DNA from: Tetradesmus obliquus
Lineage: Eukaryota; Chlorophyta; Chlorophyceae; Sphaeropleales; Scenedesmaceae
NCBI GenBank assembly: GCA_030272155.1
Contig: CP126193.1
Coordinates: forward strand, 1,922,001 to 1,986,000
DNA: 64,000 nt
Direction of reading: 5' to 3'
The notes below the pieces were generated by a model, which saw only the letters and a program-made list of their open reading frames with translations, did no database searches and was not told the DNA's origin. Of this stretch, positions 15,661 through 64,000 are shown in pieces (the stretch's first letter is position 1; the number at the start of each line of letters is the position of its first letter). Both the position numbers and the translations under genes were made by a program.

Positions 15661-17170
15661 GCGCCTGACGCAAGCGGCGCAGATGCTGCAACACACTGTG
15701 TTGCTGCTGAGCAGCGTGATGCATCACCATATTGTGTCTGCTAGCACAGCGCACTGCTGCTGGACAATCGTTAGCTGTGTCACGTTGTACGTGTATAAGC
15801 GAGCCTGCTTGCCATAAGCTTGATTGGATTGTGCATGTTGCTCAGTTGACGGCCAAGCAGGTTGAGGTAGCATGAACTTGCTTGGTTCGTAGCTTGTGTG
15901 CAGCTGAGTGTGGGGCCAGCGCAGGCCCATGTAACAGGTTGTGCACGGTGCTTGGAGCTCTGTCAACAACAAATGCAGGAGTAGGGCTGCTATACAATAG
16001 AGTGTCAAGAGCTTTGCACAGTGTTTGGCATGCGGCAGAGTACAGCAGCTATTGGGAACTGGGTGAGCTCAGACCCACCAGACCACACCTTTGACATGGA
16101 AAGCAAGTCCTTTGTACAAGATTGGTAATTACACAGTGAGCACTGCGCAGTGCAGTGGCATGCCAGCAGGCAGCTTAATCACTGACGGTCCAGCTAGTGT
16201 GCGTGCAGCAAAACGATGTGCCAAAGGGCTCAGCATGCGAACAGACACATGCAGCACCAGCATGCACAGCACACAAGAGGGCGTGTGCACGGGCACTTGC
16301 ACAGCGGCGGTGTGCAGTGGTGCAGCTGGCATTGCAAGCTGACGGAATCACCTAGCGCAGCAAAGATTGCTTTGTACCCAGTTACGTCAGAACTAGTACC
16401 AGCCTGTGCCTAGCAGCAGGCACGGCAGCAGGCACGGCAGCAGTACTTGGAAACACGCTCAGCTGCACGCCGGTTACCTGCTGACAGCGCTGTACAGACA
16501 CGCGGTCGTCATCACCAGACAGCACTGGCCGGCCCACATGCAACCAACTGCACCACAGTGTCCGACAGGCTGGGCAGTCAAGCGCAGCAGTGTCCCGTGT
16601 TGCAAGAGGCTGCTGCCACCTCACACCCGTTCAAAACATGTGCCATACGTACATCAAGTTGGAGGCCGACAGCCAGCAGTCGCACAGCTGTAATCCGCAT
16701 CCCCACAGCTGTTGCAAACACCTACTTTCTGGTAACACCAAAGCATCCTCTGGCAGGACTGAACAGCAGCACCATTCGTCTATACAAGCTCAAGGATCCG
16801 GGGCCCAACACTGGCTAACAACAGTGGAGCACAGGTGGATACTTCCTGTGTCAAGCCTGTTATGCATGCTACGGCCTGCTGCTGCTGGTGGTGCGGTGCA
16901 CAAACCCAATCCTATACACAAGGACAGCCGGCTGTTGCCAAGTTGCCTTTCCAATGCTGGCCTGGCGATTGCATCAACAAAGACCACGCCACAATCCAGA
17001 AGCGCCGCACGATGCATCACGAGGCAGGACATCGCCCAGGCCTGCACATCAGCGCTGCAGCACGCACGCAATCCTACGCCATAATGCATGGTCCTGCACC
17101 ACAACACCGCTCATGCATTTGACAATCACCACCATCACTTCAATAATCAAGCCACCACAGGTGTAATCGC
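15661..17170. other. Convergent intergenic region
   Basis: This is the 3' flank of the LEA gene, with TGTAA at 15930, running into the 3' flank of the malonyl transacylase. The plus strand changes from T/G-rich to A/C-rich near 16100, which I read as the boundary between the two transcription units. No coding region is supported. Confidence 0.5.
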
Positions 17171-17337
17171 CTTACGCGATGACGTTGGTGACCTCCGCCT
17201 TCTTGTCGATGCGCTTCATTGATGCACGCGATGACCATCACCGCCAGCACGTCACCAGTCAAGCCGCAACATTCGCCTTACGCGATGACGTTGGTGACCT
17301 CTGCCTTCTTGTCAATGCACTCATGATGCCCGCAATG
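17171..17337 (-). repeat. Two echoes of the last exon end of malonyl transacylase
   Basis: Copies beginning at 17171 and 17276 repeat the last 50-60 nt of the coding region, including the TAA stop, which itself begins at 17379-17381. Spacing is 105 and 102 nt. They lie in the 3' flank. Each unit carries the same trailer (ATCACCGCCAGCACGTCA) in place of the exon's next part. Confidence 0.9.
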
Positions 17338-17378
17338 ACCATCACCGCCAGCACGTCATTAGTCAAGCCGCAATCATC

Positions 17379-20300
17379 TTACGCGATGACGTTGGTGATC
17401 TCCGCCTTCTTGTCAATGCGCTTCATGATGCCGGCGATGACCTTGCCGGGGCCCACCTCGTAGCTCTTGCTGAGGCCCTTGCCCAGCAGCGTCTGCAGGC
17501 TTGTCTCCCACTGCACAGGGGAGGTCAGCTGCGGCAGCAGCAGGTGCAGCAACAACAGGCAAAAGCATGGTCAATGAGCAGTACAGCAGGTTCAACACAG
17601 CCCCTTGCCCAGCTGCGTTTGCAGGCTGGTCTCCCACTGCGCGGGGGAGGTCAGCTGCAAACGCAGAAAGTGCAGTGGGAGCAGCAGCAGCAGCAGCACA
17701 GACAGGAGGCGGGGTGTTGCTTGATGAGATGCGGGCTCACGCGCAGCTCAGTGCCAGCAGCAGCAACAGGCTTGGAGTGCTGCCGCTGCTGGCGCGACAG
17801 TGAGCAGAGTTTTATTTGCACCTCATTGTCCGCACAGGTTAGGTTGCCGCTGCTGCTGCTGCTGCACTCTCCGCATGATTGCCAGATGCTCACCTGCTTG
17901 GCGAGGATCTCCTTGATGACGGCCGGGTCTGAGTGTGGCTGCGCGTCCACGTTGCTGATCACGGGGATGCGCGGCGTGCTGATGGCCGTGTTGTTGAGCG
18001 CCTCCTGCAGCTTGGCGGCGGCTGGGGCCATGTACTGCGTGTGGAAGGCGCCCGCAACAGCCAGGCGCACCTGCAGACAAGACAGCAGAATAGCACCGGA
18101 AGAGGACAATAACAACGCAGTATCTTTCAGGTGTCCTGTCAGCACTGCATAAGTAGTATAATGCTGTGACTGCTGGCAGCCATGCACTGCGGCAGCAGCT
18201 GCTGCTCCCAGCAGGCATGAGCCTCTCACCATCATACAAGCTGCGGCTTGCTAGCTTGAAGACCATCACCTAGCTCGGCGCAAGCTAGGGCACAAAGGAT
18301 GCTTAAGATCAATTACCGTCATGCGCGCTTGAAGGCGCGGTCCTTGCCAGGCATCACTCGTTTGACTGGCGTGCAAGCTACTAGGTTAGCAGGGGTTCAA
18401 CATCAACAACTTCTATCAATTATTTTGACCACCACCACTCACCGTCATGCGCGCCTTGAAGGCGGGGTCCTTGCCGAGGCGCTCCACCGCCTCGCAGCCC
18501 TCGATGCTGCCGCTGACCGCGTAGTTGCCGGGGCACAGGAAGTTGGCGATCTGGATGGCCTTGTCAGCACCCACCTGCAGCAGCAGCAGCAGCAGATGCG
18601 GCGGGAGGGTGTCAAGTTAAAGGCATGAGCACCGCCGCCAGCAGCAAGCGTCGGTCAGGTGTTGGGAAAGCACCTCATCCCTGCCGCCCAGGCAACCACA
18701 CACAAGGCACACAGCCTGCAGCTGCAACTCTGTGTCACACAACAACTTCAAACTGCAAAACCACCACCGCCCCCGCACCTCGGCTGTTGCTTCCTCGCAC
18801 AGCGACGCCACAGCAAACAAACATTTGCAAGCCACACCTTCTGGACCAGCATTGCTTGCAGGTGAACAGTTGTGCTTTTACCATGCCTTAAACTGTCATT
18901 AAACCAGGCACGCACATGCCCGCAGCCACACATCTCAAAAATCTAAACAACAACGTCATTGTTCACACAAACAACAAGCAGCCCGCACCTCGGCCGTAGC
19001 TGCCTCGCACAGGGACGCCGCAGCAAACAATTGCAAGCCACACCAGGCAACGCACATGTCGGCAGCCACACATCTCAACAGTCAACACAACATTCTCAAT
19101 GTTCACACAAACAACAAGCAGCCCGCACCTCTGCCGTGGCTGCCTCACACAGGGCCGCCACCTTCTCCTTGTCCAGCCCAATCACGCTGACCATGCCGCC
19201 AGACACACATTTTATCAAACATTGCCAAAATCTTTGTCGACATCACAGCTATGCAGCCTGCACCTCAGCATGGTTGCCTCACACAGCACCGCCTCAGCAC
19301 CAACATGCGAGCCGCACCAGGCATGCACACGCCGCCAACCGCACATTCAAACAACCAAAAAACCCTCGCACCTCTGCTGTGGCTGCCTCACACAGCGCTG
19401 CCACCTTCTCCTTGTCCAGCCCAATCACGCTGACCATGCCGCCAGCCACACAATATACCAAGCAACTGACAAACAACTTGTCAGTAACACGGCTATGCAG
19501 CCCGCACCTCGGCCGTAGCTGCCTCGCACAGTGCGGCCACCTTCTCCTTGTCCAGCCCAATCACGCTGACCATGCCGCTGCGCGCGGCATCAGCAGCGGC
19601 CTGCATGCTCTCGCCGCGCAGCTTCACCAGCTTCAGCCCGTCCTCAAATGACATGGCGCCTGGCAGCAGCAGCAACGCACGCAGGTGAGAAGGTACACCA
19701 CGACAATGGCGTGTGCTATGCTTGAGGCGGTACAATGTGTTGCATGCTATGCAATGTAAGGAGTGGTGGCTTGTGCCGACTCTGCAGCTGTGGCATGCCC
19801 AGGGGCAGCTGGCGCGTGGCAGGGGCACACTGCACACACACAGTCAACATAGCCTGTTACAGGCACCACAGAACAGCAGCAAATGGCTAGAACTGGCCGC
19901 AGGACAGCAGCACACTGCATTACGCGCACCGAAGGGCACTGCAAGCTCAGCAGCGCCTACAGCCTCTACAGCTTTCCATCAGCAGACAAGCACCAAGCCC
20001 AGCCCAGCATTCGCCTGATCTGAACGTGCAAACTGAGCCTGATCTGCCGCACAACCGTGTCAGCGCACCTGCGAAGGCCACTGCAGTGTACTCTTCCAGG
20101 CTGAACGCCGCAGCGCATCCACAACGTCCACCAGAACAAGCCCACACCACCAACACGCCTATGTTGTTACAAATCTACTGGCCCCACCTGCGAAGGCCAG
20201 TGCGGTGTACTCTCCCAGGCTGAGCCCAGCAGCCACGTCCACGCTGTCCAGCAGTGCCTGGCCCTCCGTGGCACGCAGCTTCTCGACAGCAGCAAGGCTG

Positions 20301-20887
20301 GCCACGTAGATGGCAGGCTGCAAATGAAAGAAATGACAGGTGTAAAAAGATAAGCACGGCACTGTTTTATGATGTCCAGACATGCTGGTCAACCAGGGGC
20401 GGTGGGTTCAGCGCGTGCAGCAGCTGGCCCAGCTGAAACAGGCGCGGTGCGGCTGGAGCAGCGAGGACGCAAGTGGTTCGAAGGGACGACTGTGTGTGCG
20501 TCCTGCGCAGAGTGCTGCAGAACAATTGCTGGGCAAAGAAAGCAGCGCCTACACCTAGCTAATGCACAGCATCTTCACTGCCGCCAGGCTGGCCATGTAA
20601 GTGGCCGGCTGCTGGGAGCAGGGGTGCGATTGCTGGGGCCCAAAACATGCAAGACAGCAGGGGCCTGTAGTGTCAATGACTGCAAGTAGCAGGGGAAGTC
20701 AGTGCTGCTGCGGTCTACCTTCAAGCCATAGCTGCTGCTGCTACTGCTGCTGCTGCTGTTCTAGTTGCATTTTGTGTTTACTGTCACCGCTGTTGCTGCC
20801 CTTAGTGCAGTTTGCTGCTGCTGTTGTTGCTCACCTGGCTGACTGCTGTGGTGTCCAGCTTCTCCTTGGGGCCCTCCACACACACCT

Positions 20888-20920
<33 letters not shown>

Positions 20921-22226
20921 GCGGCAGCAGCAAGACACATATGGTCAGGGTTCACACAGCCGCAGGGCACCGCTTGGCGGCAGCAGATGACAACGCGCGG
21001 CAGGGCAGGCGTGCTGCATTGGCAGCTGGAGCAGCCCCACATGAGCTGACCCAAGTTGTTGCAGCATGTCTAAGCATGAGCATCAAGGCATATATCATCA
21101 GGAGCACACTCATCACAGACAGCGGTGTCAGCAAGGCATGATTGGCATTGCCACAGCCGCACCTTCAGTAGGTCATAGCCAAGGATGTCTGCTGCGAGTA
21201 GACTATCTATCAAACAAGTTTGCGAGTAGAATACCTATCCTACAGCTTTGCGAGTAGACTATGTGTCTTACAGGTTTTTGATTTGACTACCTATCATACA
21301 GCTTATGAGGTCAACCTGTTGCAGGCAGCTACAGGATTAGCACCAGCCGCACCTTGAGCAGGTCATAGCCCAAGATGTCTGCCGCCTTGTCAAACAGCTC
21401 CTTGGCTGCGGGGCACTCCGCAACCAGGTCCTGCAAGGAAAGCACAGCACACAGCATGACTGGACGTATGATGCACGGCCAAAAGGTGCAGTGTGGGAGC
21501 GCAAGTTGCAGAGTATGGGAACTTGCTGAGAGGCCAAGTAGCTGATGCACTGTTGAGTTGCGCAGTGGCTGCTGCGCGCTTCAGACAACTTGCGCACAAG
21601 CTGCCAACACAATCGTGTACATATGCATTCAAGTGTTAGGCCGGTTAATCTGCTGCTGCTGCTGCTGCTGCTGGTGCTGCTGCTGCTGCTGCGCACCTTG
21701 GCCATGCCCACTGACTGTGCGCCCTGGCCAGGGAAGAAGAAGGCAGTGGTGGGCTTGTAGTCGGCAAACTTGGCGTCAGCAGAGGCCTGCAGGCAGGAAG
21801 AAAGAGAAGGTGCAAGTGTGCACCCCGTGAATTTCATCGTTAGGTGTGCCAAAAAGCCACAATGTATGTTCGCTGCAGGGTGGGGTTGCTGCAGCGTGTA
21901 CTGGCGGAGCAGAGGTGCCCTGGCAATTGTGTTGTACTGCTTTCGGCGACCCTCAGCTGTGCTGCATGCATTGCTGTGCTGCATGCATTGCTGTGCTGCA
22001 AGCAATCGTGTATGAAGCGTGTCCTCACTAAGCAGCTACTGCTGTATGCACAAAGCCTGCTGTTCACCACGGCAGCAGCCTGCACACAGCATTGCCTCTC
22101 AGGTGGCAACATAGCAACGCTGACTCAACAGGGCTTCAGGCGCTGACCACTTGCCTGAGCACGCAGAGTGGCCAGCCTCCTGGGAGCCTGTGGCCGCTGG
22201 GCCTTGAAGGCGCCGCTGCAGCACAT
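17379..22226 (-). CDS. fabD: Malonyl-CoA:ACP transacylase, plastid
   Basis: The enzyme moves malonyl from CoA to acyl carrier protein and so feeds plastid fatty-acid synthesis. Exons, 5' to 3': 22226-22155, 21786-21697, 21430-21353, 20885-20835, 20317-20188, 19659-19508, 18574-18443, 18070-17894, 17528-17379; they join in frame to 343 aa. Seen: TAFFFPGQGAQSVGMA at the start of the mature part; nucleophile Ser130 in GLSLGEYTA (the plant-type form of GHSLGE); KLRGESMQ with the substrate-binding Arg; His245 in VAGAFHTQYM; NPVQW-like SPVQWE and YEVGPGKVI near the end. The first 24 residues (MCCSGAFKAQRPQAPRR...) look like a short chloroplast transit peptide; an upstream exon is possible. Intron 1 appears to be GC-AG (CAG/GCAAGT). 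Most exons are shadowed by degenerate copies of their ends. It is head to head with MRPS34. Confidence 0.93.
17599..17660 (-). repeat. Echo of the 5' end of malonyl transacylase exon 9
   Basis: On the minus strand this reads a good acceptor followed by LTSPAQWETSLQTQLGKGL, against LTSPVQWETSLQTLLGKGL in the real exon (acceptor side at 17528). It lies in intron 8, upstream of the real exon, and has a usable acceptor. Confidence 0.9.
18316..18352 (-). repeat. Echo of the 3' end of malonyl transacylase exon 7
   Basis: Repeats the last ~28 nt of exon 7 and its donor (GTAATT here, GTGAGT in the original), about 127 nt downstream in intron 7. Confidence 0.85.
18773..19443 (-). repeat. Five echoes of the 3' end of malonyl transacylase exon 6
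   Basis: Intron 6 holds copies at about 18773-18815, 18984-19025, 19127-19200, 19258-19300 and 19367-19443. All end with the exon's GAG and a GTGC donor. The copies at 19127 and 19367 keep 24 codons open (MVSVIGLDKEKVAALCEA...), the other three only 10-14 codons. Unit spacing is 109-208 nt and includes shared intron sequence. Confidence 0.92.
18844..18900. repeat. Dispersed repeat, copy 1
   Basis: A stretch opening GACCAGCATTGCTTGCAGG recurs at 59388-59477 in the same orientation. Roughly 41 of the first 46 bases agree, then an internal length difference, then a shared AACTGTCATT. Both copies lie in intron sequence among exon echoes. Confidence 0.8.
20066..20130 (-). repeat. Echo of the 3' end of malonyl transacylase exon 5
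   Basis: Repeats the active-site end of exon 5 with its donor. In the matching frame it reads FSLEEYTAVAFAG instead of LSLGEYTALAFAG, so the GxSxG glycine is lost and it could not code a working site. Confidence 0.9.
20567..20613 (-). repeat. Echo of the 5' end of malonyl transacylase exon 5
   Basis: On the minus strand it reads CAG then PATYMASLAAVKM, against PAIYVASLAAVEK in the real exon. It lies about 290 nt upstream in intron 4 and keeps an acceptor-like CAG. Confidence 0.85.
20886..20926 (-). repeat. CTG tract at acceptor of malonyl transacylase exon 4
   Basis: On the sense strand (minus) this is (CTG)n running straight into the CAG acceptor. It is an example of the tract type seen before many exons in the window. 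Confidence 0.85.
21152..21196 (-). repeat. Echo of the 3' end of malonyl transacylase exon 3
   Basis: Reads ADILGYDLLK and a GTGCGG donor, identical in protein to the end of exon 3 (donor side at 21353) and about 190 nt downstream in intron 3. Confidence 0.88.
21194..21305. repeat. 28-bp minisatellite, four units
   Basis: Units starting GCGAGTAGA at 21194, 21222 and 21250, and a diverged fourth from 21278, repeat with 28-bp period. They directly adjoin the exon 3 echo in intron 3. Confidence 0.9.
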
Positions 22227-29679: not shown

Positions 29680-29987
29680 TGCTACTAGTACTATTGCTGC
29701 GTGCATTGCCAGCTACGAGATTGCAGACATGCATCAGCATTCACCGGGTTTGAACCGTCACTGCAGGCTGTTGCTGTGCGAGCTGCTATTATTGCTGCGT
29801 GCATCGCCCGCTGCTACTAAATTGCATGCATGCATCAGCATTGATAGGGCCTGGACTAGTTTTGTTGGCTGTTGCTGTGCGAGCTGCTACTATTATTGCT
29901 GCGTGCACCGTCAGCTACTATGTTGCATGCATGCATCAGCATTGTTCGGGCCTGGACTGGTTTTGTTGGCTGTTGCTGTGCGAGCTC
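29680..29987. repeat. ~104-bp tandem repeat, three units
   Basis: Three diverged units carry TTGCTGTGCGAGCTGCTA, ATTGCTGCGTGCA and GCATGCATCAGCATT in the same order, ending near 29780, 29883 and 29987. Units 2 and 3 are most alike. Confidence 0.88.
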
Positions 29988-32851: not shown

Positions 32852-33646
32852 TCACGCATCTTCTTCCTCCTCTGCTACACCACCCCCCTCCTCCTCTCCC
32901 TCCTCTGCCGTACTCGCCTCCGCCGGTGGCAAATCAGGCCCAGCAGTGGCATCCCCAAACTTGCTGTTGCGCAGCCGCGGCCGCACCTGCCAGCCGTGCA
33001 GTACTGCCTGCCTGTATTCCAGCAGGGTTAGCTCCTTTGCTTTTGCCTCGATCATGACATCAACCTGGCCTTCTAGACCGTACAGGTTGACGGGGCCGTC
33101 GATGTACTCTGTAGAGCAATCGGTTAGTGGCAGAGCAGCACACGACATGTTGGTTTGTGATGGTGCTGTGCCATGTGACAATCATGACGCCAACCTGGCC
33201 TTCCAGGCCGTACAGGTTGACGGGGCCGTCGATGTACTCTGTGTTGCAATTTACGGAGGGAGTGGGAAGACAGTAGAGGGTGTGTGAAGGTCTGCTGTGC
33301 CATGTGAAGGGAGACATGGCAAGCGACATGGATGAGGCAAGAACTGGTGTCAGCAGCCATCTGCAAAGATTTCAAGGCAACACATGCCTGGCCTTGACAT
33401 CTGATAACTGATAACACACAGGTGCAATTATGGTCCAAGCTACTGCGGGCACACACAACGCCAACATGCTCCACACGTCTATGCACAGCTGCACACTGCT
33501 CACTGCTGCACACTGCTGACTACTGCGGCTGCTGCAATGCACAGCCTCTCACCGGAATGTGCGCTGCGCCGCTTGGCGGGGTCCTCTGGGCACTCCGACC
33601 AGTGCACCATGGGCCGCACACCTGGTGGCCACGTGGCCACAGCAGA

Positions 33647-35484: not shown

Positions 35485-36072
35485 CGATAGCGCTTGACGA
35501 CCGACAGCAGCATACAGTAGCTGGCTTGACAGCAATGCACACAAGACAACCCATCCAGAACAGGCCATGAAAGGCTACTACTCAGTCAGGGGGCTGCCCT
35601 ACCAGCAGTCCAAACAACCTGCTGCTCACAACAAAGATGAAATGGCGCCGTGCAGCCCTCACAGCCTTGACAGCAATGCCCACAAGCAAAAACCATCCAA
35701 ACAGGCCCCAGGCCCCCAAAAGGTTGATCAGCATTGCACCGGCATTGTACCGGCAATGCAAGAAGCAGAAGAAACCTCCGCTGCTCACAACGAAGCTGCA
35801 GCAGCCTCACCGCCTGTATCTCCAGCCAGTCTGGCAGCTCCTCCGGCTTGTAGCTGGTCATCCAAGGCAGGATGCAGCTGGACAGCCGAAACAGCCGGAT
35901 GCCGTGCGCCTCGTTCCAGCGGATGAGCGGCAGCAGATCGCTGCAGCGGCACAAGGCAACGCAGGGCAGGACGATGTTGGGGCAAGACAACACAACAAGA
36001 TGAGTGCAGGCAGCTGGAAGACACACACGGTGAAAGCGCATGCTAAACAAGGCCACACACTTTCGCCACGCC

Positions 36073-58612: not shown

Positions 58613-60820
58613 TCACTCCTCGTCCTCCTCCTCACTGCTGAGCGCAAACTCGTCCGTGATCTGCAGCAGCAGGAGCAGCAGCAGAAGCAGCACCAGCAGC
58701 AGCAAGCAATGGGCAGCAGCGTGTGTCAGTGTGTATATGTGCATGCTGGTGCAATCAATGCTCGCTCAGGGAGAGCAAGACAAGGAGTGCCCATCATCGA
58801 AACCTGCAACAACATCATGCCTGGAAGGAGCATGCCTGCTTCACCATAAGCAGTACAGCCTGCCGCACGCCTGAACTGATGCTTGGCCACTGCTTGCAAA
58901 GCATGATGCAATGCACATGCAGTAGCAAACACGCGGCTGATCTGCAGCAACTTGACACCTTCCGTGCCGTGCCAGATGCAGCAGCTGCGGCAACACCACT
59001 CTGCCCGCCCGCCCACCCACCTGCCCGGACGCCCGCCCCCTGCCCGCCTGCCTGCCTGTTTGCCTGCCAGCCAGCCTGCCTGCCCCAGCTCACCCTGAGC
59101 CCTCCGCCACCAGCTCGATGCGCATGCACCACCACACTCACCCTGCCCGCTCACAGCAGAGTATCTACAAGCAACATGCAACATCCCGGTCAGCAGCAGC
59201 TCACCTTCCAGCCCTCTGCCACCAGCTCAATGCGCACCACCACACTCACCCTGCCCACTCGCCACAGAACATCTGCAATCGAGATGCAATCCTTTTGTTA
59301 AAAGCAGCTCACCCTCCAGCCCTCCGCCACCAGCTCGATGCCCACCACCGCACTCACCCTGCCCGCTCACAGCAGAGCATCCTGAGAGACCAGCATTGCT
59401 TGCAGGTGAATGGTTGTGCATTCACCATGCCTAAAACAAGCATGGCAGGCACGGGGGAATCTAAAATAACTGTCATTTTGCATCTACAAGCAACATTAAT
59501 GCCTTTGTCAGCAGCAGCTCACCTTCCAGCCTTCAGCCAGCAGCTCGATGCGCACCACCGTGACCACATCACCCTCACCCACGCCAGCATCAGCCAGGGT
59601 GGCGTCTGGCGCCAGCAGCCGGCCCCTGGCAGCAGCAGCAGCAGCAGCAGTGGCAGGAGTCCATACCATGCCATGACCTCATGCAGTGCCAAGTGCAAGA
59701 GGGCCAGAAGCGCCTCTGCATACACAAACAGCAGCTGTCATCATGGTATGCGGCTGCAACCTTCTTGGCTGCCAGAGGTTCTGTGGACATTGAAAACTGC
59801 AGCAGAGCCAGGAAGTTCCTGAGCTACTTTGGGATGTCAGTGCGCAGCACCAGGCAGCTGCTACAAGCTCCTGTTCACTTTCCTCAAGCTGCCGTTGCAA
59901 CAGCAGCATGCAACCTCAAACGACTAATGCATTATCCAAGCGCAGCTTGCACGGCATGCAGCGCAGATGTGCCAACCTCACCACATGGCAACCAATAGCA
60001 AGCAAGCACTGTCTTGATCTTGGCTGAGTCGGAGGTGGTGGCTCACCTGCACAGGGCCCGCTGCCAGGGCTCCTCAAACTTGTCCAGGCGCACCAGGCCA
60101 TCCTCAGGCGGCCAGTTGAGCTGCGCAGCAAGCTGCAGCAGGCACGCGCGCACAGCAGGCACAAACAGCAGCTGTTTATATGCATCCGTTTACGAACATC
60201 AAGCACAACAAGTAATGGGCAGTTGAGCTGCGCAGCAAGCTGCAGCAGGCGCATGCACACACCAGGCACACACACCAAGCGCAACAGGTGAGGTGCAGGC
60301 TGGAGGGAGAGGCAGGCTTTGGGAAGAGGCAGGCCCTGTAGATGCTTGGCTGAGATGCGTACTGCTGTTCTACTGGTTGTGCGTGCTCAAACGGCAAGCT
60401 GGTGCAATATGCATTTGCAGATGCACTGAATGTGCTGCTGTCCAGACCACCAGGCATGGCAGGCTTGGCTACAATTGCCCTTCGGTCAGTCACTGACTGC
60501 AGTGCAATTACAGTGCAAGCAACACTGGCATGCAGTGTGCATTTGTACTGTTTCAATGCAAGAAACAGCAGCAGGACACCTGTTCATGTGTCAAACCAGG
60601 ATGTAACATGCTGCCGGCATTTTTGAGCAGAAGCAGCAGTCCTGTGCTTGTGTGCTGGCAATGCTCCCACCGTGTCCATCAATGCTGCCACAGTAGAGCT
60701 GCCTGCATCATCCACGTCCAATGTGACAGCCTCCAGGCATACTGTGTCAGTCTTGGTTGGTGCTTTCCAATACAAAGACCAGGTTTCACGCTGGATGCGA
60801 GGCTGAACCTTGATCTGCAT
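58613..60820 (-). CDS. Small ubiquitin-fold-like protein, family not recognised
   Basis: Four exons, 60820-60671, 60132-60047, 59625-59523 and 58660-58613, join in frame to 128 aa. The order of elements fits a beta-grasp fold: MQIKVQPRIQRETWSLYW (strand), EAVTLDVDDAG (strand), STVAALMDTLAAQLNWP (helix), GLVRLDKF (strand), then GRLLAPDATLADAGVGEGDVVTVVRIEL, which has the L-x(2)-D-x-T-L-x(2)-A-G-V-x(2)-G-D pattern of ubiquitin-like domains. It ends in an acidic tail (ALSSEEEDEE) with no diglycine, so it would not be conjugated. Its role is unknown; protein-protein docking is a guess. Introns 1 and 3 contain echoes of exons 2 and 3. It is head to head with the SRPBCC gene. Confidence 0.78.
59004..59085. 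repeat. C-rich GCCCGCC/GCCTGCC tract
   Basis: A degenerate C/T/G-rich repeat of GCCCGCCC and GCCTGCCT units in intron 3 of the ubiquitin-fold gene, directly beside the exon 3 echoes. Confidence 0.85.
59076..59375 (-). repeat. Three echoes of the 3' end of ubiquitin-fold gene exon 3
   Basis: Copies at about 59076-59160, 59191-59265 and 59303-59375 repeat VVxVVRIELxAEGW and the GTGAG donor of exon 3 (donor side at 59523). They keep the order of sequence but differ by substitutions, with unit spacing near 115 nt. Confidence 0.9.
59388..59477. repeat. Dispersed repeat, copy 2
   Basis: Same sequence as at 18844-18900 in the malonyl transacylase intron, here about 33 bp longer. It lies between the last echo and the real exon 3. 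Confidence 0.8.
60216..60257 (-). repeat. Echo of the 5' end of ubiquitin-fold gene exon 2
   Basis: Repeats about 30 nt across the exon 2 acceptor (original 60112-60142). It sits about 110 nt upstream in intron 1. Confidence 0.85.
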
Positions 60821-61245: not shown

Positions 61246-62582
61246 ATGTTCAGCACCGTGTGCAAGATAGACACCGAACTGGTGATTCCCGCCAGCCCAG
61301 CACAAGTCTGGGCTGTGTTCGGTGATTTTGCTAATTGGGGTCAATGGAACGACTTCATGGTGCTGCCTATCACGCCCAGCAAGGTCGGAAAGCCCTGCAG
61401 GGTGCTCTTCCATCTGGACGGTGGCTGCATCAAGCGCAGCGTGCACGACCCAGAAGTAAGATACTTGCTATGAGTAAAGAAACCGCATTCATGTGTCGCC
61501 AGCAGAATGACAACGCAGCCCTTCATCGGCAGCAGCAGATGTAGCAGTAGTATCGGGTGGACCACAGTACTGCATCTCCGACAGTGTTGTGTTGCTGGCC
61601 AGATGGCAGCGACATGGGCGATATGCTTGCAATATATCAACGATGTACCCTGATGAATGCAGCTGGAGAGCTCAGCAGCCAACCACCATCGCCACAGCAG
61701 CAGCACCACCAGACAGCACCAATGTTTATGCACAGGAACTGCATGTCAACTGATCTCGCTGCTGTGAAAGTCCAAACCTTTGACCAACAGCTTGTGAAAC
61801 TTGCGCCTGAATTTGCTGGCATTTTTGCTGCTGTTTCAGATCATGGTCCTTGACAAGGACAGGGAGCTGCGCTGGAAGGACTACAGAGGCATCATATTTT
61901 CACAGTTCTTCAGGTGCGCACAGAGCGCATACTACAGCATTCAGAGCAACTAGACTTGCAGGAGCACCAAGGACACGCTGCAGCAGTCATTGTTCTGCAG
62001 AGGGAAGCTGCCATATCCTGTGGCCGCCACGCCACAGCAATCCGAGGTTTACTGCAGCTGCCCTGTGTCCTGCAAGCTGGCCAACTGCCTGCAGCATCCA
62101 TCTTACTCCAGCAAAGGGATATTGAGCTGTCCCCAACATAATCACCTTTTAACACCACCTGCTGCATGCTGCACACCACGCTGCTGTACACACCCTTCCC
62201 CCCTTAACGCAGCGGCAGCCACTGGTATGTGCTGGAGCTGCTGCGCACCATTGACCCACCAAGCAGCACCTGCTGCCTGCTGTGCACCATGCCGCTGTAC
62301 ACGCATCCATCTTGGTTCTTTGCTTTATTTAAGAAGCCGTATAATACTGTCATTTTACATGCCCTTGTTTCCTGCAGGGGCAGCCACTGGTATGTGCTGG
62401 AGCCGCTGCCCAACGGCCACACCCGCTTTGTGCATGGTGCGGAGATGATGGGCCTGGCCATCCCTTTCCTGCAAGCCACCATGGCTGCCACGCTCAAGGG
62501 CTACAAGCGCTTCAACCAGGCGATGGCCGACGAGGTGGTGCACAGGAGCAGGCGGCAGACTGGGAAGCGCGCGGTGGCGTGA
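61246..62582 (+). CDS. SRPBCC-superfamily protein (polyketide cyclase/START-like)
   Basis: SRPBCC proteins have a helix-grip fold with a deep pocket for hydrophobic ligands. Exons 61246-61455, 61840-61913 and 62378-62582 join in frame to 162 aa, the usual size. Seen: the start IDTELVIPASPAQVWAVFGDFANWGQWNDF, typical of the family (xxVWxxxxDFxxWxxW); CRVLFHLDGG; IMVLDKDRELRWKDY; RGSHWYVLEPLPNGHTRFVHGAEMMG; and the long C-terminal helix ATLKGYKRFNQAMADEV. No leader peptide is seen, so cytosolic. The ligand is unknown; bacterial and algal homologues of this short type are mostly uncharacterised. Echoes of both ends of exon 3 lie in intron 2 and just after the stop. Confidence 0.88.
62203..62300 (+). 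repeat. Echo of the 5' end of SRPBCC exon 3
   Basis: CAG then CGGCAGCCACTGGTATGTGC repeats the acceptor and first ~30 nt of exon 3 (62378 onward). It lies about 170 nt upstream with its own acceptor. The intron part (CACCTGCTGC..GTGCACC.. GCTGTACAC) is also doubled at 62155-62200 and 62265-62305. Confidence 0.88.
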
Positions 62583-62642
62583 GGCGGTTGGTGCTGGCAG
62601 GGATGCTGGCAGGGAGCAGGGATCTGCAGAGGAGTTGCATGC

Positions 62643-62745
62643 TGATGAGATGGCGCACAGGCGCACGCGGCAAACAGGGAAGCGCGCGGTGGCGTGAGTT
62701 GAGTTTGACTGTTGCTGGCAGGGATGCTGGTAGGGAGGAGGGGCC
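62643..62745 (+). repeat. Echo of the SRPBCC coding end and 3' flank
   Basis: Repeats 62522-62625: the last ~60 coding nt, the stop (GCGCGGTGGCGTGA) and about 45 nt of trailer (GCTGGCAGGGATGCTGG), with a 121-nt period. Confidence 0.9.
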
Positions 62746-64000
62746 TGTAGGGGGCTGAGGGATGGGCGGCTAGTGAGGGGAAGGAACTCTATTCTGAGAT
62801 TGCAGGGGCTGAGTGCGCGAGTGCATGAGGTGTGTTACTTTGTTAGGGACAAGCAGACATGCAGTGCTACTTTCTTCAGACGCCTGTCAGGCAGGTTGGT
62901 GTTGGGCTCTGGGGCTGGTAGGTTGCTTGGGATGCGAGTTGTTTGTTCATGACTAACACGGAATATGTACAGTTGAAGCACACCAAACATGAGCATTGAG
63001 TGTGCGGGCTGCAAATGAGATGTGCTGACTGAAAACGATGTGTGCTGGCTGCGAATGATGGGTATATTGACGCGGCAGAACTGTGTATAGCCTTGCCACG
63101 ACACTGCTCATGCAGCGTCGACAAGAATAACAGTGTTGTTGTCTATAGTGTCAGTAGCATGGCCAGCAGCACAGCTCAGCGCCTGGTGCTGCATTGGGTG
63201 CAGGCGGTTTGTTCTTGACACGCTGTGCATAGCTTATGTTGTACATGTGTCCAATTGTAGCCCCGGCAGCTCTGCTGCAGTGGCGGGTGCCATGCAATAT
63301 GCCTGCGATGGTTCTCAGCCGTTGAACATATGATTTGTGAATGCTAGGTGTTGTCTGTACATGCTGCAGCCACTGTGTCTGTGCAGACACGTGTGCAGGA
63401 CAATGTGCAGTGCCTTTGATGTATCTCAGCATGTCATGGGTGTATGGACCACCAACTGGCTGCGTGTGGCGGTGTTGCATTTAGAGGTGCAACATGGTCC
63501 TTGTGTGTGCTGAAACAAGCTGGTGTGAGTTAACAGAGTACAAAACGTATGGGATGGGCTGTACAGTGCTGTTTCAGTGTGGAATGCTCATGAATAAGTT
63601 ACTGTGTGGTGCTATGGCAGCCATGTGCAATGGTGAAAGGCTGCTGCTTCTGCAGTTTCTTTGCAGTTCAGTGTTACTTGCTTTGTATGATGGCCGGTGG
63701 GTGCTGCTGTGTGTTCTTGAGGCAGGCTGGCGACAGTGCTGCTGTCTTGTCAGCTGATCGGCGTGTAAAGATGGACAGTCTAGCATGAAAAAGCAAAGCT
63801 CGGCCAGACGACCCCCCCCGCCCTGAGCCTCCCGGCGCTCCAAGTGGGCTGCCCATGTAAGCACGTCCGTCCAGCAGCAAGGCATCATATCATCATGCGA
63901 AGTTCTCCTGTAGGCGCAGAGAAGATTACAGGGCAGGGTCGTTAGGGGTCCTATGGCGGGACCACCTGTGACCCCTGCCCCCCGTCTTCAAGTAGTCCTG
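62746..64000. other. 3' flank and window edge, no gene called
   Basis: T/G-rich on the plus strand to about 63780. The last 200 bases change character and could hold the terminal exon of a minus-strand gene continuing outside the window (on the minus strand DYLKTGGRGH is open, then a CAG acceptor at about 63915). This is too little to call. Confidence 0.35.

Follow-up and report, generated by a model that had tools for sequence, protein, structure and literature searches.

The 64,000-nt stretch of the Tetradesmus obliquus genome considered here (assembly GCA_030272155.1, contig CP126193.1, positions 1,922,001 to 1,986,000; hereafter the window, in whose coordinates features are given) carries on its minus strand fabD, the gene for malonyl-coenzyme A:acyl carrier protein (malonyl-CoA:ACP) transacylase, and several exons of this gene are accompanied by degenerate copies of their own ends. 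Eight joined exons form a single open frame of 319 residues, with GT-AG at each internal border shown; our exon numbers follow a preliminary description of the locus, and the eight-exon model starts after the N-terminal exon or exons. The 319-residue product passes the curated cut-off of TIGR00128 (ACP S-malonyltransferase; 299.7 bits, cut-off 260.9), and the solved structures closest to it are malonyl transacylases. A gene finder self-trained on the genome sample described below, in which all splice borders are predictions, called 8 of the 8 fabD exons exactly and added seven short false exons, none of which reaches the thresholds that we required for a border (exon of 60 nt, score of 10). 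The acceptor consensus that the gene finder learned from the whole sample is TGCTGCTGCTGCTGCAG|G.

Degenerate partial copies of fabD exons 3, 5, 6, 7 and 9 were found nearby, at the places where they had first been noticed. All are direct (same strand, minus like the exons) and on the expected side of their exon, with copies of 3' ends downstream and copies of 5' ends upstream; the positions of the originals come from the gene model and the gene finder. The 3' end of exon 3 (21353..21430) recurs with its donor at 21154..21195 (offset 190; 42 nt, 88.1% identity), and the intron between exon 3 and this copy contains an array with a 28-nt period at 21193-21304. Exon 5 (20188..20317) has a copy of its 3' end and donor at 20066..20134 (offset 119; 81.4% over 70 columns) and, on the other side, a weak copy of the acceptor and 5' end at 20570..20617, recognised by eye (about 23/30) and under our threshold of 25/30. 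The 3' end of exon 6 (19508..19659) has four clear copies and one weak one: two with donor and intron, at 19367..19464 (family D4 of the self-comparison) and 19124..19221 (offset 379; 82 nt, 93.9%), two with the donor, at 18982..19030 (offset 519; 35/35 identical at 18978-19012) and 18772..18820 (offset 729; 40 nt, 85%), and the weak copy in the same array at 19275..19323 (family D14). The 3' end and donor of exon 7 (18443..18574) are copied at 18315..18352 (offset 126; 92.5%, two 1-nt gaps). Exon 9 (17379..17528, including the stop codon) has a copy of its acceptor and 5' end at 17599..17675 (offset 126; 77 nt, 84.4%), and its coding end and stop recur twice, at 17271..17325 and 17165..17219, within an array at 17165-17442 that has a period of 104 and 2.7 copies (offsets 112 and 216). 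Exons 2, 4 and 8 have no copies at the thresholds used.

After simple repeats had been masked, self-comparison of the window at a score of at least 60 gave 19 direct pairs less than 1 kb apart, one direct pair with a separation above 10 kb and no inverted pair, and one dinucleotide shuffle of the window gave no pair at the same score. At a score of at least 50 there were 24 direct pairs less than 1 kb apart and no inverted pair within 10 kb. Shuffle controls consisted of one shuffle each for the window and for one locus. The matches thus exceed expectation in the self-alignment that the preliminary description had proposed as a check, with both the inverted and the shuffled control of the window at zero, and chance similarity is refuted. 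A genome search with window positions 17171-18171, which skipped simple and very common words and did not extend to the exon 6 array, matched only that segment itself and one 30-nt stretch. For the segment so searched, this speaks against an introner or other dispersed element, which would be expected to have relatives at other places in the genome.

Other local direct duplications in the window lie at 29689-29986, 33051-33250, 35525-35707, 59086-59575, 60110-60277, 62209-62412 and 62526-62753 (smallest offsets 98-165 nt). CTG/CAG runs are frequent in the window.

Direct duplications in the genome sample

The genome sampled comprises 104,662,953 bases in 17 contigs. Our sample consists of 27 loci and the window, 334 kb in all; one locus made up entirely of N (L005) was excluded from every count. 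Across 19 sampled 10-kb loci, comparison at a score of at least 50 gave 175 direct pairs less than 1 kb apart, eight more at 1-4 kb and no inverted pair. A scan that was neutral with respect to offset found 136 direct versus four inverted events in the 334 kb, a density of about one event per 2.5 kb; the events fall in the window and in 22 of the 27 loci, with none in the other five (L004, L014, L016, L025, L029). When blastn was run on the same sample it returned 136 arrays. Local exon-end copies are not specific to fabD but spread genome-wide in the sample, and the view of the phenomenon as a peculiarity of one gene does not hold, given direct duplications in the window and in 22 of the 27 loci.

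The offset-neutral scan places 83 of its 136 events at offsets of 90-139 nt (median 119) and 16 at 30-79 nt. The histogram of blastn offsets agrees with it; blastn recovered none of the 35- and 50-nt units that we implanted, and figures for length are quoted from the offset-neutral scan. Gene structure seems not to set the length of the unit, because the quartiles of blastn offsets are nearly equal for arrays that touch exons (111/125/148.5; n=92) and for noncoding ones (110/125/148; n=44). Judged from this genome alone, both the density of events and the class of about 120 nt look unusual.

Extent of the duplicated unit and its relation to exon borders

At each of 579 predicted borders we searched the intron side only, at distances of 35-420 nt, for a copy of the exon end with at least 25 of 30 matches. 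Such a copy accompanies 86 of the borders (52 of 294 donors and 34 of 285 acceptors), and the reverse-complement control at the same 579 borders found none at donors and none at acceptors. In a border table that counts both sides, copies on the intron side make up 49 of the 78 donor copies and 43 of the 54 acceptor copies that lie outside their exon; many copies in it are called exons. Border-spanning events number 60 of 113, versus 44.4 (standard deviation 5.3) under random placement in the same loci, and 48 of 113 are noncoding only, versus 61.4 (standard deviation 5.1). The link to borders is real yet modest, and the excess could stem from selection and from exon copies decaying more slowly. 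The earlier generalisation that every copy spans an exon border fails genome-wide, since those 48 events are confined to noncoding sequence. Exon-internal offsets are multiples of three in six of six cases, a result that is partly circular since the gene finder requires an open frame.

To judge whether the duplication extends to the intron part of the unit, we compared the intron between exon and copy with the intron beyond the copy, against mismatched pairs (up to 60 per case). Of the 84 testable cases, 53 show a homologous intron part at p<0.05 and 69 at p<0.2; most thus have the look of head-to-tail tandem duplications, not of isolated exon-end copies. Intron sequence is also shared among the copies of the fabD exon 6 array. 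In 12 hand-chosen alignments the shared intron is interrupted by many insertions and deletions (indels) of up to about 30 nt, and noncoding pairs that span the full tandem show 241 indels and 548 substitutions, or 0.44 indels per substitution; the loss of ungapped homology past the splice consensus is due in part to this high indel rate. Few events in our list are both full-length and near-identical. The offsets of the 86 border cases are divided 27/30/29 by remainder modulo 3. Short tandem duplication with one breakpoint in an exon, which was among the explanations first offered, gains support from the duplicated intron part (53 of 84), from offsets unconstrained modulo 3 and from the presence of direct duplications throughout the sample.

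Origin of the exon-end copies

We propose, with a probability of roughly 0.78, that the copies are decayed short head-to-tail tandem duplications, mostly of 90-140 nt, that have arisen over much of the genome and need not target exon borders. A unit covering one splice border would leave the original exon end, its donor, some intron, and then a second exon end with a second donor; the arrangement would be mirrored at acceptors, and likewise beyond a stop codon. If splicing used the site that retains the complete exon, a normal mRNA would result, such that the duplication could be tolerated and the second copy would drift as intron. An exon copy would face a conserved original and an intron copy a drifting one, and border events may for this reason stay visible longer, while units inside exons would tend to be removed by selection. 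Staggered breaks or paired nicks, repaired by end-joining or by fill-in, may be the source of the duplications, and the copies themselves are probably without function.

In the gene for D1 protease (locus L033; C3:3736300-3737800), the start of one exon is copied 91 nt upstream, together with an acceptor AG (33/40; best reverse-complement match, 20). Three joined exon pieces of this gene are identical to 1FC7, the photosystem II D1 protease of Scenedesmus obliquus, at 188 of 188 residues, and mature D1 protease 1FC7 carries the duplicated segment once. A peptidase S41 gene (L032:1077-1311) has the 5' end of one exon copied twice upstream, 32/36 identical and at offsets of 99 and 199.

The synonymous fraction among differences is 0.516 (0.41-0.615, n=51) in a clean set of 51 cases whose copy is not called an exon, from which four cases of locus L030 were left out; a neutral copy facing a constrained exon would give 0.41-0.525, according to the mutation spectrum. 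Coding constraint on the copies was considered as well, and the case for it weakened once copies called as exons were set aside.

Several results nonetheless weigh against decayed, untargeted duplication. Taken together, the 86 cases have a synonymous fraction of 0.585 (0.505-0.668), a high value because the 35 copies called coding give 0.71. The identity of GT/AG is 0.94 over the 86 cases, versus 0.72-0.88 in indel-rich neutral runs of simulations that use assumed ages and a rough mutation model, the real cases having been chosen for a conserved exon part; low-indel neutral runs reach about 0.85-0.93, yet their intron profile fails, and their 0.08 indels per substitution is too low against the estimate of 0.44. 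Of copies that are at least 0.96 identical, 67% adjoin intron of less than 0.45 identity, compared with 26-45% in neutral runs; the two oldest neutral age ranges give 75% and 88%, but with too few such copies (0.05-0.08 of cases versus 0.35). No single neutral age range matches exon, splice and intron identity jointly. Homology of the intron part is below significance (p<0.05) in 31 of the 84 testable cases, and the length of about 120 nt is accounted for by nothing that we tested. The association with exons is, moreover, statistically clear: 78 of 113 events have homologous stretches that touch a good exon, versus 51.1 (standard deviation 5.0) at random, and coverage by copies, at 0.22 over the final 30 bases of exons before donors, falls to 0.08-0.11 at depths of more than 60 nt into the exon, with 0.13-0.14 in donor-side intron bins beyond 15 nt. 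Finally, exon-internal events number 5 of 113 versus 7.1 (standard deviation 2.7) at random, a depletion that is not significant.

A more far-reaching form of the tandem-duplication proposal, which we hold only tentatively and consider rather doubtful, is that a length-gauged process, such as one in which chromatin or replication structure sets the distance between breaks or nicks, steadily inserts tandem copies of about 120 nt across genes. Such a process would have touched about one in seven splice borders and would lengthen introns, with some of the second splice sites retained by selection.

It is improbable that the copies are decoy or alternative splice sites maintained by selection on the exon end and splice dinucleotide. 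Ungapped homology does often stop just beyond the splice consensus (the changepoint falls at +8 or less for 46 of the 86 cases), 46 of the 51 clean copies keep their GT or AG, and simulations fit more closely when the copy is given a rate of evolution 2-4 times lower than that of the intron, a comparison made by eye rather than by formal fit; however, the cases were selected for a conserved exon part, and within the same copies GT/AG is not clearly better kept than the adjoining exon part. With offsets random modulo 3, use of the second sites would often break the frame. Gaps, some of them frameshifts, are present in 8 of 42 aligned copies, including that of exon 7, and the synonymous fraction of the clean set is compatible with neutrality.

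An origin of the copies from RNA or splicing intermediates inserted locally is very unlikely, even though 46 of 86 cases lose ungapped homology no more than 8 nt from the border and intron homology is not significant in 31 of 84. We dropped the argument from copies that seem to end exactly at splice sites, since gapped comparison shows intron homology in most testable cases (53 of 84), as does the intron shared in the exon 6 array; noncoding events, in addition, have the same offset quartiles. Slightly less probable again is the Rogers model of intron gain, in which an exonic segment bearing AGGT is duplicated in tandem and of which the copies would be relics. The duplications would supply raw material for such gain, and a potato study describes a related border-spanning case (PMC4974935), but 0 of 428 predicted introns agree in length, to within 3 nt, with the offset between a pair of copies at the same border, where shuffled lengths average 1.7. 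Assembly artefact or chance is the least credible explanation of all, with no inverted and no shuffled window match at the same score, no match in the border control, and copies that differ by substitutions and indels, as would not be expected of mis-assembly.

Relation to known duplications

Short tandem duplications formed by end-joining of breaks with protruding ends were reportedly described by Vaughn and Bennetzen in 2014 and by Schiml in 2016. Two further papers (PMC5730883, PMC8355091) present the repair of such breaks as a source of small tandem duplications, established in mammals and reported in plants, and name paired nicks and fill-in by Pol alpha-primase/CST as routes to them. The T. 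obliquus copies resemble these duplications in being direct, local, head-to-tail and without an element, and differ from them in their density of about one per 2.5 kb sampled and their narrow class of 90-139 nt. We infer that the same kind of repair process probably acts in T. obliquus.

Two other published systems come close. In the potato RdRp gene, a border-spanning tandem duplication created a new intron (PMC4974935), whereas the T. obliquus copies sit inside introns, with 0 of 428 introns of matching length. Repair-mediated duplications that capture proximal DNA in vertebrates, of which 824 are given for the human genome, with four donors that are partial exon/intron (Pace 2009; PMC2671141), are likewise local and can include parts of exons and splice sites. 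These vertebrate duplications are rarer than those of T. obliquus, where 86 of 579 predicted borders have a copy, and at least one published (exon) example (PMC2671141) is inverted, in contrast to 0 inverted versus 175 direct and 4 versus 136 in our sample. The statement in the preliminary description that no named process predicts such copies was consequently too strong, since tandem duplications made by repair are known and a border case has been reported from potato. What we describe looks like a known kind of mutation in a seemingly unusually dense and length-restricted form. No description from algae or from this lineage is among the listed matches of our searches of open-licence literature; the main text of a Sphaeropleales genome comparison (PMC12571836) has no mention of intron, exon or tandem, and that of the Scenedesmus NREL paper none of intron or "duplicat".

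If the density and the narrow unit of about 120 nt hold genome-wide, T. obliquus would be a natural system in which to ask why small tandem duplications have the length that they have, how introns become longer and how a gene copes with competing splice sites. There is a warning for annotation, too: partial exon copies next to real exons mislead gene finders in this genome, and ours miscalled the exon 6 copy at 19129-19186 as an exon.

Longer or more regular repeats were also observed in the sample. Locus L025 (G000:C10:3000001-3010000) is an array of 3,682-nt satellite units, with 100% identity over 2,001 nt at many sites on C10 and C2; further copies lie on C6 and C16, 40 of the 147 candidates having been scored. 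At L030:7915-9770 and L015:1449-2357, tandem repeats of 108 nt and of 72/144 nt, respectively, lie mostly within predicted coding sequence, and L013:1-2832 contains two direct copies of about 1,380 nt, 96% identical and at an offset of 1,456.

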